The translations under genes were made by a program, and so were the position numbers. Of a DNA stretch of 60,349 bases, positions 51,569 through 60,349 are shown piece by piece. The notes below the pieces were generated by a model. That model did no database searches, was not told the DNA's origin, and saw nothing but the letters and a program-made list of their open reading frames with translations. Position 1 is the first letter of the stretch, and every line of letters begins with the position of its first letter. Source of the stretch: Gemmataceae bacterium (GTDB taxonomy: Bacteria > Planctomycetota > Planctomycetia > Gemmatales > Gemmataceae); assembly GCA_009692005.1 (NCBI GenBank), contig SHZZ01000017.1, positions 1 to 60,349 on the forward strand, given 5' to 3'.

Positions 51569-54223
51569 TTAACCAGAAAAATCCCGCCGCTGGAAAGTCA
51601 TGAACCGCCGGTCTTTCTTGTAAGGAGACTCGCCAATCCGGATCATTTTGGCCTTGGCCAGCTTATAGCGGTAGTTGTTGGTTATTGGATCGACCACCCG
51701 GTGAGCCAGCGCGTTGAACGGATTATCCGGATAAAGGAAATAGGTGAACAACACGCCCGGGGGCACGGCAGCAGTAACCATGGCCACCCCTTCGATCTGC
51801 CCTTTGCCAATGCGGATGTGCCCTTCCCTCTCCAACCAGGAGAATTTGATCTCGTCCGCTTCCACGCGATTGAATCCCCCGGTTTGAATGAGAACATCGT
51901 CGTTAGTCAATCGGACCATGTCCCCGCTCTCCACCCCGCGGGCCTTGGCATCGTCTGGGTGAATCTCAACGAAGTTCCCGGGCCACCGGGCAGCCATGTA
52001 CGGCTTTCTTAGGTCGTCAAACCCGGATTGCCAGGCTTCATTAATTCGACCGCAAGTCACCCACAACTCGCCCTTCAGAGCATCCGGCTTGATGCGGGCG
52101 TAGAAATCGGCAAACAGTTCCCAGGGACTCTTGATCAGGAGCGCCTTCCCCGAATGGGTATTGAACGCCGTCAGCCACTTGGCATGAGTAGTTGGCCCTT
52201 CCAAGTCGGCGGGTTTGAGCGTGCTGTCGTGCAGGCGGACAGTGCCAACCAATTTCCCCTCCTCGATTCGGACGGGGCACTGGATGCCGGTGGTTCCCAT
52301 GGCGCGCAAAGATTCGTGGCCCTTTTTCCCATCCCGATTAGCCTTCCAAACCAGAGGGTAATAGTCGAGAACATCGCCACGGCTAAACCGGGCCGCTTCC
52401 TCAAACACCGCGTTGCCATCGGCCCAATGGTACCCAGAGAACCCCATGGCCTGGGCAAAACGGGCGATGGCACGCCAATCCGGTTCCGCCTCGCCGGGAG
52501 CGTCGTAGAACTTCGGGTAAAGCCGCAAGCGCCTTTCTCCATTGCAACGCGACCCGTCATGTTCTCCCCAGGCGGCGGCGGGAAGGACAATGTCGGCAAG
52601 TTCGGTGTTCAACGGATTGACCGGGTACAAGTCGGAATCCACCAGCACCATGCCACCCGATTCCACCCGCTTGATGAGCGCTGCTACGATGTCATCTTTG
52701 TTTACGCTGGTGGGTTGATGGGGATTTTCCACCGTCAGCTTTCGCACCGTGCGGGCCAATTCCTGGCTGGCAGTCATGGCGCCAGTCCAAGTTGTGCCGA
52801 TCACCCACAGGAAGCGAACCTGGCCCTTTTCCACCCAGCGGTCGAGGTCGAGTTCCACTTTCCTTCGCCCGGGCAGCCGTTCCGGGGATTTTTCCCGTGG
52901 GTACGGGGCAGCGCCCATCCAGCCGCGCTGATGCCCTCCAAGGCGGCTGACCATTCTGCCGGGCCGGTTCCCCGAGCCGCAAAGCAATGCCAGAGATGCC
53001 AGGCTCGCCGTGTTGAGGTAGTTATTGCTCCAGTAATTGCCTTTTTCAAAGAGAAAGGTGGCCTTGGGCTTGGCCTTGCCGGCGCCAGAAAGCAGTTTTG
53101 CCGCCTTCAGGATCTTCTCTTTCGGGATGCCGGTTTCCTTCGCAGCGAAAGCGAGTGAGGCCGGTTCGTGGGCCAGCAGCCACTTTTTGTAGGAGGCGAA
53201 ATCGGCCGCCCCGATATCTCCCCAGGTGGTTCGCCATTGCCAGGGCGTATTGCGGGTGCCGCGCCCGAAGCCGCTGTCGATCTCCCAGGCATTGGCCACC
53301 CATTGCTGGAGGAATTCCTTGTCCTCCCAACCGTTTTCCAAAATGATCCGGCCAAGTGCCATGTGCAACAGGGCATCGGTGCCGGGAATGATTTGCAGGA
53401 AAAGTCCCCCATTGGCCTCGGCGTAAGCCACCCCCATGGTTCGCCGGGGGACGACAAAGACCATCGTGGCCTTCGAGCGCATCATCCATTCCGTAAAGAC
53501 CACGGTTTTTGATTCATAGGGGTCGGTGCCGGAGAGGAATAACACCTCAGCGCTTTTAAAGTCTTCATAGGCGGCGCTGAAGGTGAGAATGCCAGCATCA
53601 TCCATTCCCGCAGTGTCGTTGGACATGGAAGGTTTGTCATGGACGGCAAAGGCCGGCGTCTTGATGGATTCAAATGCCAGCTTGCTGATGGCATAGGTGT
53701 TTTCGAAAAACTCGTAGGAGTAGGTTTTCATGCCCCAGGCTGCTTCGCCGTGTTTCGCAAGCACATGCTTGCTGACCGCAGCCATCACCTCGATGGCGGT
53801 ATCCCAACTGATGCGGGCCAAACGGCCGCCAATCCTCGCCTGGGGGAAGCGCAGCCTGTCTTGTGTGGGGCCGTTGGGGTTGTGGCATTTCAACGCCAGC
53901 GTTCCGCCGCGGATGGAATGGTTCCCACCCGGGTTGACAACTTGGGCCTCAATGTCCGCCACAATAACGCAGTGATGGGGCTTCCCGCCGGACAAAACCG
54001 TGGTGTGCTGATTGGGGCTGACCCATGCGCCTTCAAAGCCGGTGGGAAAATCGGCGCCAAAGGCGTTGTCCTTTGCCCCCGGCCCACCTTCACGGCCCAC
54101 CGGCCAGGTATAAACCTTGAACCCGCAGCCCACTATGCAGTAAGCGCAAACCGTCGCTTGCACTTTCGCGTCTGCCGGGGGCAGGGGCGCGCGGTCATTC
54201 CTTACATAAACCGGCAGTTCCAT
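51569..54223 (-). CDS. Molybdopterin oxidoreductase of the arsenite oxidase / iodate reductase family, large subunit
   Basis: An 884-residue DMSO-reductase-superfamily enzyme. The N-terminal cluster site is CAYCIVGC (Cys26, Cys29, Cys33) with Ser103 (NHSIRGG) where most relatives have a fourth Cys; this 3Fe-4S pattern marks the AioA branch. Arsenite-site positions of AioA compare as follows: His195 kept, Glu203 is Asp203 here (HDKPSMSND), Arg427 and His431 in RLGGHQRG kept. No signal peptide, so it is probably carried out by the Tat signal of the Rieske subunit 97 bases upstream. The family holds arsenite oxidase (AioA), iodate reductase (IdrA) and uncharacterised relatives. The pentaheme partner favours IdrA. 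Classical AioA is about 825 residues, so this one is longer. Confidence 0.88.
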   Translation of the reverse strand: MELPVYVRNDRAPLPPADAKVQATVCAYCIVGCGFKVYTWPVGREGGPGAKDNAFGADFPTGFEGAWVSPNQHTTVLSGGKPHHCVIVADIEAQVVNPGGNHSIRGGTLALKCHNPNGPTQDRLRFPQARIGGRLARISWDTAIEVMAAVSKHVLAKHGEAAWGMKTYSYEFFENTYAISKLAFESIKTPAFAVHDKPSMSNDTAGMDDAGILTFSAAYEDFKSAEVLFLSGTDPYESKTVVFTEWMMRSKATMVFVVPRRTMGVAYAEANGGLFLQIIPGTDALLHMALGRIILENGWEDKEFLQQWVANAWEIDSGFGRGTRNTPWQWRTTWGDIGAADFASYKKWLLAHEPASLAFAAKETGIPKEKILKAAKLLSGAGKAKPKATFLFEKGNYWSNNYLNTASLASLALLCGSGNRPGRMVSRLGGHQRGWMGAAPYPREKSPERLPGRRKVELDLDRWVEKGQVRFLWVIGTTWTGAMTASQELARTVRKLTVENPHQPTSVNKDDIVAALIKRVESGGMVLVDSDLYPVNPLNTELADIVLPAAAWGEHDGSRCNGERRLRLYPKFYDAPGEAEPDWRAIARFAQAMGFSGYHWADGNAVFEEAARFSRGDVLDYYPLVWKANRDGKKGHESLRAMGTTGIQCPVRIEEGKLVGTVRLHDSTLKPADLEGPTTHAKWLTAFNTHSGKALLIKSPWELFADFYARIKPDALKGELWVTCGRINEAWQSGFDDLRKPYMAARWPGNFVEIHPDDAKARGVESGDMVRLTNDDVLIQTGGFNRVEADEIKFSWLEREGHIRIGKGQIEGVAMVTAAVPPGVLFTYFLYPDNPFNALAHRVVDPITNNYRYKLAKAKMIRIGESPYKKDRRFMTFQRRDFSG

Positions 54224-54320
54224 TCTTGGCTTCCTTTCAACCGCCCAGGGCGAGCGAATTGGCCCTTATTTCCCCTGTTATTTGGGTAAACAACAGAGTT
54301 TTTCCCTGCAAGCGCCAGCA

Positions 54321-54884
54321 TCATCCGGGCTTGGCCTTGTTGTCGCCAAACCCAAAAAGCAGCCCAAAAATTCCCACCGCCAAAATGTTCTCTCCTTCCA
54401 CTTCCAACACCACCTGGGGCAACCCTTGTGTGGCATGGCCGCTGACAACCATTCCATGGCGGGTCAGGTCAAAAGTGGTCAGGTGGCCAGGACACGGCCC
54501 GGCCATTCCCACCTCTGGATAAAACTTCTTTGACGGTATTTCCCACCCCATATGTGGACATAATGAACTAAAGGCCACGATGTCCTTCTTCGGCCCGACA
54601 CCACCTCCCCCTTCTTGGCCAAGCTTCACCAGAACCATGCGGCAATTGGAATGGTCCCAGGGATAGCGAAACTCCACCGCTTCCCCTGTTTTTACTTTGC
54701 CCAGTTCCGCTACTTTTTGCCGCGGATACTTCGCCAACTGCCCTTGCGCCCACCCCAGGCCGGGGAGAGTCACCGACATCATGGTGGCGCCGGAGGCAAA
54801 CAGGAAAGCACGGCGGTCAACAGGATTGCAGGGGCCAGGGCAGCCCGGCTCGGATTCCTCGAGTGGCACGCGAAAGGAACTCAT
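54321..54884 (-). CDS. Rieske iron-sulfur subunit of the AioB/IdrB type
   Basis: A 187-residue Rieske protein. DRRAFLFASGATMM with Arg24-Arg25 is a Tat signal. The cluster ligands are Cys109-Pro-His111 and Cys131-Pro-Gly-His134. The extra Cys pair that forms a disulfide in bc1-type Rieske proteins is replaced by Trp114 and Gly133, as in some AioB proteins. It passes electrons between the molybdenum subunit and a c-type cytochrome in the periplasm. Its ATG overlaps the stop of the pentaheme gene (54881-54884), and the molybdoenzyme follows. All three are therefore one operon. Confidence 0.92.
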   Translation of the reverse strand: MSSFRVPLEESEPGCPGPCNPVDRRAFLFASGATMMSVTLPGLGWAQGQLAKYPRQKVAELGKVKTGEAVEFRYPWDHSNCRMVLVKLGQEGGGGVGPKKDIVAFSSLCPHMGWEIPSKKFYPEVGMAGPCPGHLTTFDLTRHGMVVSGHATQGLPQVVLEVEGENILAVGIFGLLFGFGDNKAKPG

Positions 54885-57451
54885 GGCCCCACCTTCCCGC
54901 TATAGCGGCCGTAGGGTGGCAAGGGCGGCGGTTTATCTGCCAGCGGGTCGCCGCTCAAACTTTCTAAAAAAGCTTGCAAGTCCAGTTTCTCCTCTTTACT
55001 TAGCCCCATTCTCTTAAGAATGGGACTTTTGTTTTGATTCCTGCCTCCACCCTGGTCGTAAAATTCAATCACCTCAGACAGGGTTTTGAAAATGCCATTA
55101 TGCATGTAGGGCGGCGTGTGTTTCAATTCCCGCAGGCTGGCTGTGCGAAACTTTCCGGTGTCCTCGCTTCGCTTGGTTACATAATAAAGGCCAAAATCGT
55201 CGCGGGCCTGATCATAAACCGAGCGAGGAACTCCATTGGATGCCTGCTCGAAACGGAAGGTGATTTGTTTGTTCGGGCTGTTGAGGAAATCCGGGCTGGC
55301 AGGCACCCCGAGATTATGAAAACGGTCGTCGGAAAGCAACGCACCATCGTGGCATTGAATACAGTTGGCTTTGCCGGTAAAGATCCGGTACCCCCGCTTG
55401 GCCGACCCGCTAATGGCCTGGGCATCGCCCCGAAGGTAAGCATCGAAGGGAACATTTTTACTATTAAGCGTTCGCTGAAAAGCGGCAACGGCGCGGAGGG
55501 CGTTGGCCCAGGTGGGGAATTCTTCGCCAAAGACGGCTTTGAACCGAGCCCGGTATTCCGGCGCCTGGGCCAGCCTTTCTTCCGCCAGATCCGGGTCGAT
55601 GTTTCCCGCCACGGCGCCACTCCAGGCGCCATCATTTTGCTCCTCGATGCTTCCCCGGGAGCCATCCCAATTGTATTTCTCGAAATAAGCGACATTGAAA
55701 AGGGCGCTGGAATTGCGCCAATGACTGGCGCCGGCGCCTCCCATGGAGATGGCCGTCCGCGCCGTATATCCCGTGTGCGCCGGGTGGCAGGTATTGCAAC
55801 TCGTGCCCCCTTCCGCCGATAGCCGGGGCTCGAAAAACAACAGCCGCCCGAGTTCCACCTTTTCCTTACTCCAAGGGTTGTCCCTGGGCTCTGGCGGTGG
55901 AGGCAGAACGGTAATCGGACGGGGTTTTCTAAAAGCCAGGGCGGGGGAGTTATTAATTTCCTTCTGTTTCACTTCCGGGGCTGGAGGCAGCACAGAATAA
56001 TCCGGCAGCTCCGGTGTGGTGACTTGGATTGCTTCCGAAGCCAGCGACTTCAAGAAACCAAGCAACTGCTTTTTCTCGACAACCGTCAGGTTCAATCTTT
56101 TCAATCCGGCCCGTTGCCCCGGTCCTCCCCCCTGGTCGTAAAAGTCGATGACCTCGTCGAGAGTGTTGAAGCGTCCATCGTGCATGTAGGGCGCGGTGCG
56201 GGCTGCCTCCAGGAGGCTGGGGGTGCGGAAACTCCCGCGTTTAGTTTCCTGGAAGTTCACCACGAAGCGACCGGGATCGCTGGATAGGTTGCGATAGTTC
56301 GGGGTCCCCAGTCCGCGGAAAAACCGGCGAAAGGTCGTGTGCCGTTCCGGGTCCTCCAGCAACTCCGGCCTCGTGGTTAGGCCCAGGTCATGAAACTGGT
56401 GATCGCTAAAAAGCCCCGCAGGATGGCAACGCGCGCAATCCGCTTTGCCATCGAAGAGTTTCTTCCCCGCCTGCGCCTCGACGGACAGCGCCTTGCCATT
56501 CCCTTTTACGAATTGGTCGAAGGGAGAGGATCCCGAATGGAGGGATCCGCTGTAGGCCGCAAGGGATTTCAAAATCGTCCCAAAATCAGGTTCAGTTCCA
56601 AAGGCAGCCTGGAAGAGTTCCGCATATTCAGGCGCCTGTTTCATGCGTTCAATGAGCAACCGCCCGTCGGCAGCCATGAAGAAGGGCTCCGTGAGGTGAT
56701 CGCGGACAACGGTGGCCAGGTCCGCACTGGCCAGGCGCCCGTCCCAATACGCCGTCTTCAATTGCGAAATATTGAGCAATGTGGGTGTATTGCGGAATAG
56801 CGCCGTGCCGGGGTAGCCGATGCTTACAGCCATTCCATCGCTGAAAGCTTTTTCGGGCTGATGACAGGAAGAGCAACTGAGGGCGTTGCAGGCGGACAAC
56901 CGGTTATCGAAAAAAAGCGCTTTGCCCAGGGCAATCTGAAGGTCCGTCGGCGGCTTCAACAAAGGCGATAGGGGCGGAGCCATGGTCTCGGCCGGCCGGG
57001 TGCGGTTGATCTTTTCCCCGGGTTTATCCACACCCTTGGGGTTTTCGTTCCCTAGCTGGGCCAGATATTCCACCAGCAACTTTATGTCTTCACTTGAGAG
57101 CGTCTTGGCAAACCGTTTTGGCATGACGCCTTTCTCGAACCCGCCCGGCGCCACCATGGCGTCGGGGTCCAGAATCGATTCGCGAATGTATTCCTTGGCG
57201 GACATTTTGGGTTTACGCCCGGCAGCGGCCACCCCGAGTTTAGAAAGGTTGGGCCCGACTTCACCATCCGCGCCGGGCACGCCGGGAATGACATGGCAGT
57301 TCCCGCATCCGCCCCGGTTAAGGATGGCAACGACCGCGTTTGGCGCCGCGGGGGCTTGTCCACCATTCGCTTCTCCGCGAAGGCCGACAAGCGCCGCCAA
57401 TAGGAACAGGTCCAAGATGAGCCTGCCATGTATGTCCATGCCCTTTGGCAT
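54881..57451 (-). CDS. Pentaheme protein: cytochrome c domain fused to two MauG/CcP-type di-heme modules
   Basis: An 856-residue exported protein (hydrophobic segment LILDLFLLAALVGL). Residues ~38-140 are a mono-heme cytochrome c with CGNCH 49-53. Module A (~165-475) has CSSCH 193-197, CARCH 339-343 and PYMHDGRFNTLDEVIDFYDQ 421-440. Module B (~525-835) has CNTCH 552-556, CIQCH 697-701 and PYMHNGIFKTLSEVIEFYDQ 781-800. A and B are internal repeats of a bacterial di-heme peroxidase, joined by a Pro-rich linker (480-525). In iodate reducers two separate di-heme proteins (IdrP1, IdrP2) accompany IdrAB; here they may be one chain. Reaction is inference: electron transfer or peroxide removal. ATG 57451 follows gtgaggg; ATG 57439 is an alternative. 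Confidence 0.9.
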   Translation of the reverse strand: MPKGMDIHGRLILDLFLLAALVGLRGEANGGQAPAAPNAVVAILNRGGCGNCHVIPGVPGADGEVGPNLSKLGVAAAGRKPKMSAKEYIRESILDPDAMVAPGGFEKGVMPKRFAKTLSSEDIKLLVEYLAQLGNENPKGVDKPGEKINRTRPAETMAPPLSPLLKPPTDLQIALGKALFFDNRLSACNALSCSSCHQPEKAFSDGMAVSIGYPGTALFRNTPTLLNISQLKTAYWDGRLASADLATVVRDHLTEPFFMAADGRLLIERMKQAPEYAELFQAAFGTEPDFGTILKSLAAYSGSLHSGSSPFDQFVKGNGKALSVEAQAGKKLFDGKADCARCHPAGLFSDHQFHDLGLTTRPELLEDPERHTTFRRFFRGLGTPNYRNLSSDPGRFVVNFQETKRGSFRTPSLLEAARTAPYMHDGRFNTLDEVIDFYDQGGGPGQRAGLKRLNLTVVEKKQLLGFLKSLASEAIQVTTPELPDYSVLPPAPEVKQKEINNSPALAFRKPRPITVLPPPPEPRDNPWSKEKVELGRLLFFEPRLSAEGGTSCNTCHPAHTGYTARTAISMGGAGASHWRNSSALFNVAYFEKYNWDGSRGSIEEQNDGAWSGAVAGNIDPDLAEERLAQAPEYRARFKAVFGEEFPTWANALRAVAAFQRTLNSKNVPFDAYLRGDAQAISGSAKRGYRIFTGKANCIQCHDGALLSDDRFHNLGVPASPDFLNSPNKQITFRFEQASNGVPRSVYDQARDDFGLYYVTKRSEDTGKFRTASLRELKHTPPYMHNGIFKTLSEVIEFYDQGGGRNQNKSPILKRMGLSKEEKLDLQAFLESLSGDPLADKPPPLPPYGRYSGKVGP

Positions 57452-58033: not shown

Positions 58034-58813
58034 TCAAGGCGCGCACGGAGTTGATGGTGTTGCACTTCCGTCACGATTCCCGTTCGGGAGCCGTGCGGGA
58101 CCGACCTCGACGCCCAGCAAGCCCATGACCGCTTTCGCCGCCGCCATGTAGCCGAAACCGGCGAGGAGTTCGATGAGTTGCACCGACCGGAACTGCTCGG
58201 CCCGCGCCGCCGCCAGCATGTACTCGTCCACGCCCCACGGGATGTCGAACCGGGCGTCCTGGGCGTGCAAGCAGTTCTGATAGGCCATCAGGTCGGCGTT
58301 CGTGAACTTGATGCTGGCCAGCGTGGGGATGCGATCCGCCGCTACCGCGAGGAACTCGGGCATCGGGAACTGCACGCCGGTCAGGACGGGAATGTCGTAG
58401 AAGTAGAACGGCACTGCCGGGGCCGTCCCCGCGATGTCGGCACAGCAGGCCACCAGCGCGTCGAGCGACTTCGGCTTGAAGTAGCTAGGGGCAAGTGCGG
58501 CGATGGCGTCGGCCCGAAGTTCCTGAGCCTGAGCCGCCAGCGTGCGGGCGTTGGCGAGGCAGTTCGAGCCGACGTGAACGACCAACCGCAACCCCGTGCC
58601 TCGGACGACTTCACTCCACCGGCGGGCCAGGGTGAGGCGCTCTTCAACGGTGAGGGAGTGGCTCTCACCCGTGCTACCGCCGATGAACACGGTCTTCACG
58701 CCGTTGCCGTGTAGGTGTTCGGCCTGCCGCTCGACGCCGGCAAGGTTCAGTTGGCCGTCGGGTTGGAAGGGTGTGTGGGTGGCGGCGACGAGGCCGTGCA
58801 GCTTGATCGTCAT
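58034..58813 (-). pseudogene. nanA: N-acetylneuraminate lyase-like (DapA/NanA family), C-terminally truncated
   Basis: From ATG 58813 the protein matches the class I aldolase family that cleaves sialic acid to pyruvate and N-acetylmannosamine: VFIGGSTGESHSLTVEER with the phosphate-binding loop, PFYFYDIPVLTG with the catalytic Tyr, and ASIKFTNADL with the Schiff-base Lys. It follows the family up to LGVEVGPARLPNGN (about 58090) and then diverges, ending after 259 residues, where relatives have about 300. The final helices are therefore lost. Its start overlaps the MFS gene (ATGA). G+C-rich codons contrast with the rest of the window. Active-site residues survive, but folding is doubtful. Confidence 0.75.
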
Positions 58814-59550
58814 CGAGGTTGCTCCTGGGAAGCGAGTTCGGGGCGAAGCCGGATGAGCAGCACCAACACGACCGAGAGGATGGCGAGTCCGGCGAAGCCG
58901 CCGAAGATCACGTTGAGCGGCACCTGCTTGCCTCGCAGCACGCCGAAGCCCCAATCGGCCAGCCCGCCGACGCTGATGCTGAAAAAGTTCATGATGCCGT
59001 AGCCGGTCGCCCGCAACTGCGGGAGCACGATCTGCGACAGGATGGGCATGTTGTTGCAGTCGAAGAAGCCCCAGCCGAGGCCGACCAAGAAGCCGATGGC
59101 GACGGCCAGCGTGCCGGCGTTGCCCACGCCGAAGATCGCCACCACGATCAGACTCATGCCAACAGCGCTGACGTAGATGCGGCCCCGGTTGTTCGTTCGC
59201 ACCCACCGATCCGCCAGCCAGCCGCCGGCGACGACCCCGAGGATGGCGGCGACCTGCCAGTAGAGCGTGGCCGCCACCCCTGCCTTGCCCTGACCGATGT
59301 TGAACTGCTTCTGGAGGATGGCCGGCATCCAGTCCCGCACCACCCACCCGGCCATCGCCGGCAGGGTGAAGTACAAGATCAGCAGGATGAAGGAAAAGCT
59401 GGTCAACAACTCACTGCCTGCACCGACAGGGGAAATCCGTGGAGCCGCCAGCCGCTCTTCCGATTTCGGTGCGTCCCGCAGGAAGATCACCAGCGGGACG
59501 GCGTACAGCATCCCCACGACGCCGCAGGCGGTGAAGGCGATCCGCCCGCC
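58810..59550 (-). pseudogene. MFS transporter, N-terminal part deleted
   Basis: The frame encodes the C-terminal portion of an MFS carrier: a helix with RIAFTACGVVGMLYAVPLVI, the linker RDAPKSEERL, and about six further helices (for example WVVRDWMPAILQKQFNIGQG and GFLVGLGWGFFDCNNMP). The first three to five helices are missing: the coding sequence joins directly to the kelch gene at about 59542-59550. In the sialic-acid clusters of planctomycetes this position holds a sialic-acid transporter. No intact start codon precedes it; translation would have to begin in the kelch frame. Confidence 0.78.
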
Positions 59551-60341
59551 GAGGAGGTAGAAGCCCGAGGCGTCGGACGGGGCGGGTGACGGCGCGGCCA
59601 CGATGGGATGGGGCAAGTCGGCGACCCGCTTCCGGCCCTTGTCGGAGTCGTAGCGGTAGGTGTCCTTGAGGTAACGGCGTTCCACCTTCTCCCCTTTGCC
59701 GACGACGAGATCGACGACGCCCACCAGCCATAATGCCCCGTCGAAGCCTGCCGCAACCGCCCGTCGCCGGGGCAATCGTCAATGCCCTCCCACTTCGGTT
59801 CTTTGGCCGACAGGTCGAGCCGCCATGCCGCCTTCGACATGTTCTCCGAGTCCGGCTTCTCGTGACCGCCGGCGACATACAGCATGTCACCGACCAGCGC
59901 CCCACAGCCGTTGGCGACCGGCTTCGGCAGAGGCGGGAGTTTCGTGGTCACGAGTTTGCCGTCTTTCCAGTCCAGCCGGAAGGCGTCGGCGTAGTGCCGC
60001 TCCGCATCGCTCCCGCCCACGCACACGACCCCGCCGCCGTGGGTGACGCTGACGCCGTGGGTGACGCTGACGCCGTACCCGAGCGGGCGGGGCAGCTTAC
60101 CGCCGACGGCCCATTTGCCGCCCGGCTTCTCCAACACGCATACCGCGTCGGACCACACCTTCTTGCCGCCGTCCCACGGCTTTTTGTCGGGGAAGTTGGC
60201 ACCGTCGGCCACGACCAACACGCCGGCGAACCCCTCCTTGTCGGGCAGCGGTGTCAGGCGCTCCCACTCACCGGCGATGGCGAACGGGGCACCAGGGAGG
60301 ATCAGGAAGCAGAACATCAACCGCCATCGAAACGTCCCCAT
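59551..60341 (-). pseudogene. Kelch-propeller protein (N-acetylneuraminate epimerase NanM-like), frameshifted and 3'-truncated
   Basis: From ATG 60341: signal peptide (MFCFLILPGAPFAIAG), then kelch strands such as LPDKEGFAGVLVVADG and GALVGDMLYVAGGHE. At about 59755-59775 the frame breaks after EGIDDCPGDG; the sense continues in another frame as RAVAAGFDGALWLVG, then RYLKDTYRYDSDKG and SDASGFYLLGG, where the gene is cut and joined to the MFS. NanM-type proteins interconvert sialic-acid anomers. It has an 18-bp tandem duplication (60039-60074). Frameshift plus deletion make it a clear pseudogene. Confidence 0.78.
60039..60074. repeat. 18-bp tandem duplication inside the kelch pseudogene
   Basis: gtgggtgacgctgacgcc occurs twice in a row (60039-60056, 60057-60074), adding six residues (GVSVTH repeated) in frame. 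It looks like a replication slippage event. Confidence 0.85.
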
Positions 60342-60349
60342 ACGCTGCC

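Follow-up and report, generated by a model that had tools for sequence, protein, structure and literature searches.

An iodate reductase-family operon with a fused cytochrome c-IdrP2-IdrP1 protein in a Gemmataceae genome

The window analyzed here, a 60,349-nucleotide stretch comprising contig SHZZ01000017.1 of the Gemmataceae bacterium assembly GCA_009692005.1, carries a three-gene operon on its minus strand, read from position 57451 to 51569. The genes encode, in order, a five-heme protein (54881-57451, 856 aa), a Rieske protein (54321-54884, 187 aa), and an AioA-family molybdoenzyme (51569-54223, 884 aa). The first two overlap by 4 bases (54881-54884), and a 97-base gap (54224-54320) separates the second from the third; the coordinates, overlap, and gap given in the original prediction were exact on re-check. 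Its description of an AioA-family molybdoenzyme beside a Tat-exported Rieske protein is likewise borne out. The molybdoenzyme scores 417.5 bits against TIGR02693 (cut-off 359), and the Rieske subunit, which carries the Tat motif DRRAFLF, scores 107.8 bits against TIGR02694 (cut-off 95.65); both profiles carry arsenite oxidase names. The molybdoenzyme, designated IdrA from its profile match, tree placement, and Mo-site residues, is the predicted catalytic molybdopterin (bis-MGD) subunit. Its N-terminal [3Fe-4S] site comprises C26-x2-C29-x3-C33 (54125-54148) with S103 downstream, a C-x2-C-x3-C-x69-S motif, and no signal peptide was seen in this subunit. In the Rieske [2Fe-2S] subunit, IdrB, the ligands C109-x-H111 and C131-x2-H134 (54483-54560) give C-x-H-x19-C-x2-H. 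The cluster pattern and the Rieske ligands are thus both present as first noted.

The large protein begins with a hydrophobic, Sec-type N-terminus and contains CxxCH motifs at residues 49, 193, 339, 552, and 697; profile search recovered one cytochrome c domain and two CCP_MauG domains. The monoheme cytochrome c domain (residues 48-133, 57053-57310; PF00034, 60.1 bits) is followed by an N-terminal di-heme domain (residues 156-480, 56012-56986) and a C-terminal di-heme domain (residues 506-850, 54902-55936). For phylogenetic analysis, each di-heme domain was treated as a sequence of its own, alongside P2 proteins (encoded by the first gene) and P1 proteins (encoded by the second) from loci in which the two are separate. 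The P1 and P2 groups were each recovered at 100/100, with the N-terminal domain of the window protein inside P2 and the C-terminal domain inside P1. Judged by its sequence, the large protein joins a monoheme cytochrome c, an IdrP2-type di-heme domain, and an IdrP1-type di-heme domain, in that order. The "multiheme di-heme peroxidase" first proposed was therefore right as to its five CxxCH motifs, but the protein is not a single peroxidase. Because P2 and P1 are fused behind a cytochrome c, three genes supply all four idr types in their usual order, and none is missing; a single peroxidase left after loss of one P gene is ruled out, both domains being present and typed.

The whole fused protein also scores 402 bits against TIGR04039 (MbnH family, cut-off 362.85), with the best stretch at residues 522-841, in the P1 part. 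With MbnH and MauG it shares CCP_MauG di-heme domains, two of them here; unlike those systems, no methanobactin or methylamine genes were recognized nearby, and its operon partner is IdrAB. Both di-heme domains, as well as nearly all typed homologs, contain a Tyr in the C-terminal motif PYMH(D/N)G...(F/Y)Y, as in 6e1c. The axial Tyr of MauG presumably occupies this position, which we take as a lead only.

IdrA is ~28-33% identical to AioA and 46-62% identical to homologs in P2-P1-B-A clusters from many phyla; identity to proteins of two other planctomycete MAGs reaches 82-86%. Relatives identified by genome scan at 47-86% belong to Planctomycetota, Hydrogenedentota, Chloroflexota, Methylomirabilota, Nitrospinota, Myxococcota, Verrucomicrobiota, and Pseudomonadota. 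Where contigs were long enough, nearly all of the homologous loci carry a pair of di-heme peroxidase genes followed by B and A, all in the same orientation. Among plasmid records, identities of 45.7-55.6% to Azonexus, Thiothrix, and Vibrio proteins are followed by ~28-31% for AioA-annotated records. The corresponding Idr-type loci (L104, L105, and L106) are each carried by a large plasmid, in Azonexus hydrophilus, Thiothrix subterranea, and Vibrio sp. THAF190c, respectively, and, where annotated, are labeled arsenate reductase (azurin) or a generic oxidoreductase.

The original prediction had called for placement of the 51569-54223 product in a tree. A maximum-likelihood tree was built from 36 proteins, comprising 27 Idr-type rows (window included) and nine AioA-side rows, one of the latter a long-branched Cytobacillus protein. 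The window IdrA and the other 26 Idr-type rows split from the AioA side at 100/100, and within them the window IdrA falls, together with the Azonexus and Thiothrix proteins, in a group of ten rows (100/99). The Azonexus plasmid locus stands in for the proven IdrA of SCT, IR-12, DN11, and R. azorensis, which the tree left out; gene order, motifs, and the cited papers link the window to those enzymes.

Residues at the Mo site were compared using the eight positions named for NT-26 AioA (PMC10448176). The window IdrA keeps H199, K413, R447, and H451 (NT-26 AioA numbering); at the other four positions it has S for D169, K for R201, D for E207, and R for E453. Ser at 169 and Arg at 453 each occur in 26 of 27 Idr rows, and all eight AioA rows compared have Asp and Glu at these positions. 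Loss of funnel-mouth acids and gain of a base fit an anionic substrate; we infer that the acidic funnel mouth serving neutral arsenious acid has turned neutral to basic, as would suit an anion such as iodate. The Rieske spacing of 19 agrees with the 18-21 found in Idr rows, as compared with 13 or 15 in AioB rows. Together, tree, gene neighborhood, Rieske spacing, and Mo-site residues support assignment of the operon to the iodate reductase (Idr) family, outside arsenite oxidase. The prediction of an Idr-like operon ordered P-B-A thus stands in its family assignment, though its single P is in fact P2-P1 fused behind a cytochrome c.

The idrABP1P2 clusters of Pseudomonas sp. SCT, Denitromonas sp. 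IR-12, and Azoarcus sp. DN11 have the same A, B, P1, and P2 types in the same P2-P1-B-A order as the window, as well as the [3Fe-4S] motif, a long Rieske spacing, a Tat signal on IdrB, and a Sec-like N-terminus on the P proteins. The operon described here differs in uniting P2 and P1 with a cytochrome c in one protein, in a spacing to Ser one residue shorter (x69 rather than x70), in its Rieske x19 as opposed to x18 (the value described for DN11; PMC10149662), and in having no regulator, Moco, or separate cytochrome gene adjacent to the operon. PMC10989891 ascribes the order ccp-ccp-B-A to Pseudomonas SCT, Denitromonas IR-12, and Ca. Methylomirabilis iodofontis. In the last of these the idrP2P1BA peroxidases are reported as two separate genes, whereas they are fused in the window, and its IdrA is reported as closest (65.4%) to a Planctomycetaceae protein (PMC10989891). 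In the Azonexus plasmid locus, genes for an ATP-binding protein and a sigma-54 regulator precede P2-P1-B-A-cyt c, much as the cluster of iodate-respiring Azoarcus DN11 is described with atoS/atoC (PMC10149662). The small c-type cytochrome gene lies after idrA in Azonexus, and the SCT cluster is reported to have one nearby. By analogy, these arrangements suggest that the fused cytochrome does the job of the separate small cytochrome, though similarity between the fused and Azonexus cytochromes is not significant.

The three genes probably make up a complete idr locus, encoding an IdrAB iodate reductase and a fused cytochrome c-P2-P1 protein that handles oxidants. IdrAB would be exported folded via the Tat signal of IdrB, and iodate would be reduced at its Mo center in the periplasm, with substrate and direction taken from characterized Idr enzymes. 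Electrons would pass from a quinol-oxidizing chain through a c-type cytochrome to the IdrB Rieske cluster and on to the IdrA [3Fe-4S] cluster. The product, again by reference to characterized Idr, would probably be hypoiodous acid, which would then disproportionate abiotically. The cytochrome c-P2-P1 protein, exported separately, would destroy the H2O2 expected from characterized Idr, or other oxidants made; its anatomy suggests that it may draw on the same electron source via its own cytochrome domain. Joining the three parts would fix both stoichiometry and electron path. In Denitromonas IR-12, idrA deletion is reported to abolish growth on iodate (PMC8692401), and iodate is reported to induce idr genes in R. 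azorensis and DN11 (PMC11445184, PMC10149662); H2O2 removal is the current hypothesis for P1 and P2. No chlorite-dismutase (Cld) family gene was found in the window's genome, which is rated 100% complete, and Denitromonas IR-12 is likewise reported to be without one. This argues against the Cld-based route of the SCT model here, which we dismiss, and for disproportionation of HIO. It is doubtful that the two Tyr-containing, MauG-like di-heme centers instead act in series on HIO, IO2-, or H2O2, fed by their own cytochrome, such that iodate would be converted to iodide enzymatically and not by abiotic disproportionation.

An Idr-family enzyme might also serve another oxyanion (e.g., bromate or chlorate), or might detoxify iodate or reactive iodine in an aerobe and have no part in respiration. 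The window's genome does contain two CtaD-type heme-copper oxidase subunit I genes, along with Nas-type molybdoenzyme genes, and no proven enzyme lies near the planctomycete branch of the tree. Additionally, aerobic marine idr carriers are described as reducing iodate under oxygen limitation but as neither growing nor reducing it in anaerobic culture (PMC11445184). However, the Mo-site residues and gene set are those found across the Idr clade, and characterized members tested so far act on iodate; on balance, a different substrate or a detoxifying role seems unlikely. Under the preferred reading, iodate reduction by IdrAB, the two CtaD-type oxidases indicate that iodate may be a side acceptor, and the host is likely an aerobe able to use iodate when oxygen is low. 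A NasC-like nitrate reductase gene of this genome (L133 2299-4553, G000:C16) is split over two overlapping frames, through either an assembly frameshift or decay.

Were the operon instead an AioBA with an atypical cytochrome partner, acting as an oxidase of arsenite or antimonite, As(III) would be oxidized at Mo and electrons would leave via the Rieske cluster to cytochrome c. The operon shares with AioBA of NT-26 and Alcaligenes faecalis the fold family, the [3Fe-4S] and Rieske subunits, and the expected lack of an amino-acid Mo ligand; solved AioA structures are the best PDB matches of the molybdoenzyme, four core Mo-site residues are kept, and NCBIfam calls both subunits "arsenate reductase (azurin)" above cut-off. 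This naming is weak evidence because NCBI gives the Azonexus Idr-type locus the same name. Low identity, a separate clade, changed funnel residues, Rieske spacing, and two peroxidase domains all set the operon apart from AioBA. Additionally, neither aioS/R, for which the original prediction had advised a check, nor arsenic-resistance genes adjoin the operon among the window genes scanned. On the strength of tree, Mo-site residues, and Rieske spacing we reject an arsenite oxidase and regard this reading as very improbable.

The Idr-type operon has a scattered distribution in planctomycetes. Matches at E 1e-60 occur in 6 of 392 sampled planctomycete genomes, a count that includes the window's own and a decayed copy (G090). 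Among 98 relatives, G019 has a full idrA gene and G031 only its last 67 residues. The G019 locus, from the same family as the window genome, encodes the same fusion (890 aa) in an operon 86% identical to that of the window. In a Gemmata MAG, one contig ends within the cytochrome c-P2 part, whose frame is still open there (498 aa, no stop), and P1 picks up at another contig end, which fits one gene split by assembly. A divergent gene upstream of this fused P gene (L137 1456-2361), Crp/Fnr-like by eye, is a candidate regulator of idr in this lineage. In the decayed G090 operon (L129 7079-9071), what is left of a P2-P1 fusion is joined, with stops, to the 3' portion of idrA; idrB was not found at this locus. 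The fragment in the closed planctomycete genome G031 (L130 8938-9141, 90% identity) is apparently a deletion or transfer scar. Elsewhere, a Myxococcota locus (L014) contains a P2-P1 fusion with no cytochrome domain, and P2 and P1 are separate in four other planctomycete loci (L125-L128), each with a third CxxCH near the N-terminus in L126. In a Verrucomicrobia MAG (L013 20-6358) and a Planctomycetaceae MAG (L032 44-7102), a P2-type domain forms the C-terminus of giant proteins of 2112 and 2352 aa, respectively, that include a multicopper oxidase domain, with P1, B, and A downstream. Multicopper oxidases are known iodide oxidases; these two loci may therefore couple iodide oxidation with iodate reduction and are worth a look. 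The surroundings of the operon differ between the window and the G019 locus, and this, together with the scattered presence, is in keeping with the mobile island reported in 2021.

A 2021 study (PMC8692401) counted Planctomycetaceae, Rokubacteria, and NC10 among the deep-branching holders of Idr, so the central point of the original prediction was already on record in kind, and the operon itself is not new to the group. The P2-P1 and cytochrome-P2-P1 fusions do appear new, none being described in the portions consulted of openly accessible Idr papers.

The contig end at 58034-60349 has a GC content of 66% and a tetranucleotide correlation of 0.27, as compared with 0.87-0.95 for the rest, and is a foreign insertion or a chimeric contig end. 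It contains broken sialic-acid genes, namely truncated, out-of-frame pieces of NanM, MFS, and NanA-like (DHDPS) genes. On its upstream side the operon runs into this foreign-looking DNA after ~580 bases, so what naturally lies there is uncertain. In tetranucleotide profile, the operon itself correlates with the contig at 0.89-0.91, which does not support MAG contamination. Against a relative, dN/dS is 0.058 for A and 0.075 for P; with dS close to saturation, these ratios are rough, yet clearly low, and the genes are under strong purifying selection. Though rarity in the phylum, the decayed G090 and G031 copies, and the foreign-looking contig end might point to a relic or contaminant with no role in the host, the intact frames, low dN/dS, matching composition, and recurrence of the fusion in a second genome of the family make this highly improbable. 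The operon observation is far beyond chance.

In the Idr system, the open question is what IdrP1 and IdrP2 do. A naturally occurring cytochrome c-P2-P1 fusion is independent evidence that both peroxidases cooperate and take electrons from cytochrome c, and it makes a single protein available for putting this to the test. For the iodine cycle, the locus represents a further carrier, both deep-branching and non-proteobacterial, and the patchy occurrence of such loci, some of them decayed, documents gain and loss within Planctomycetota.
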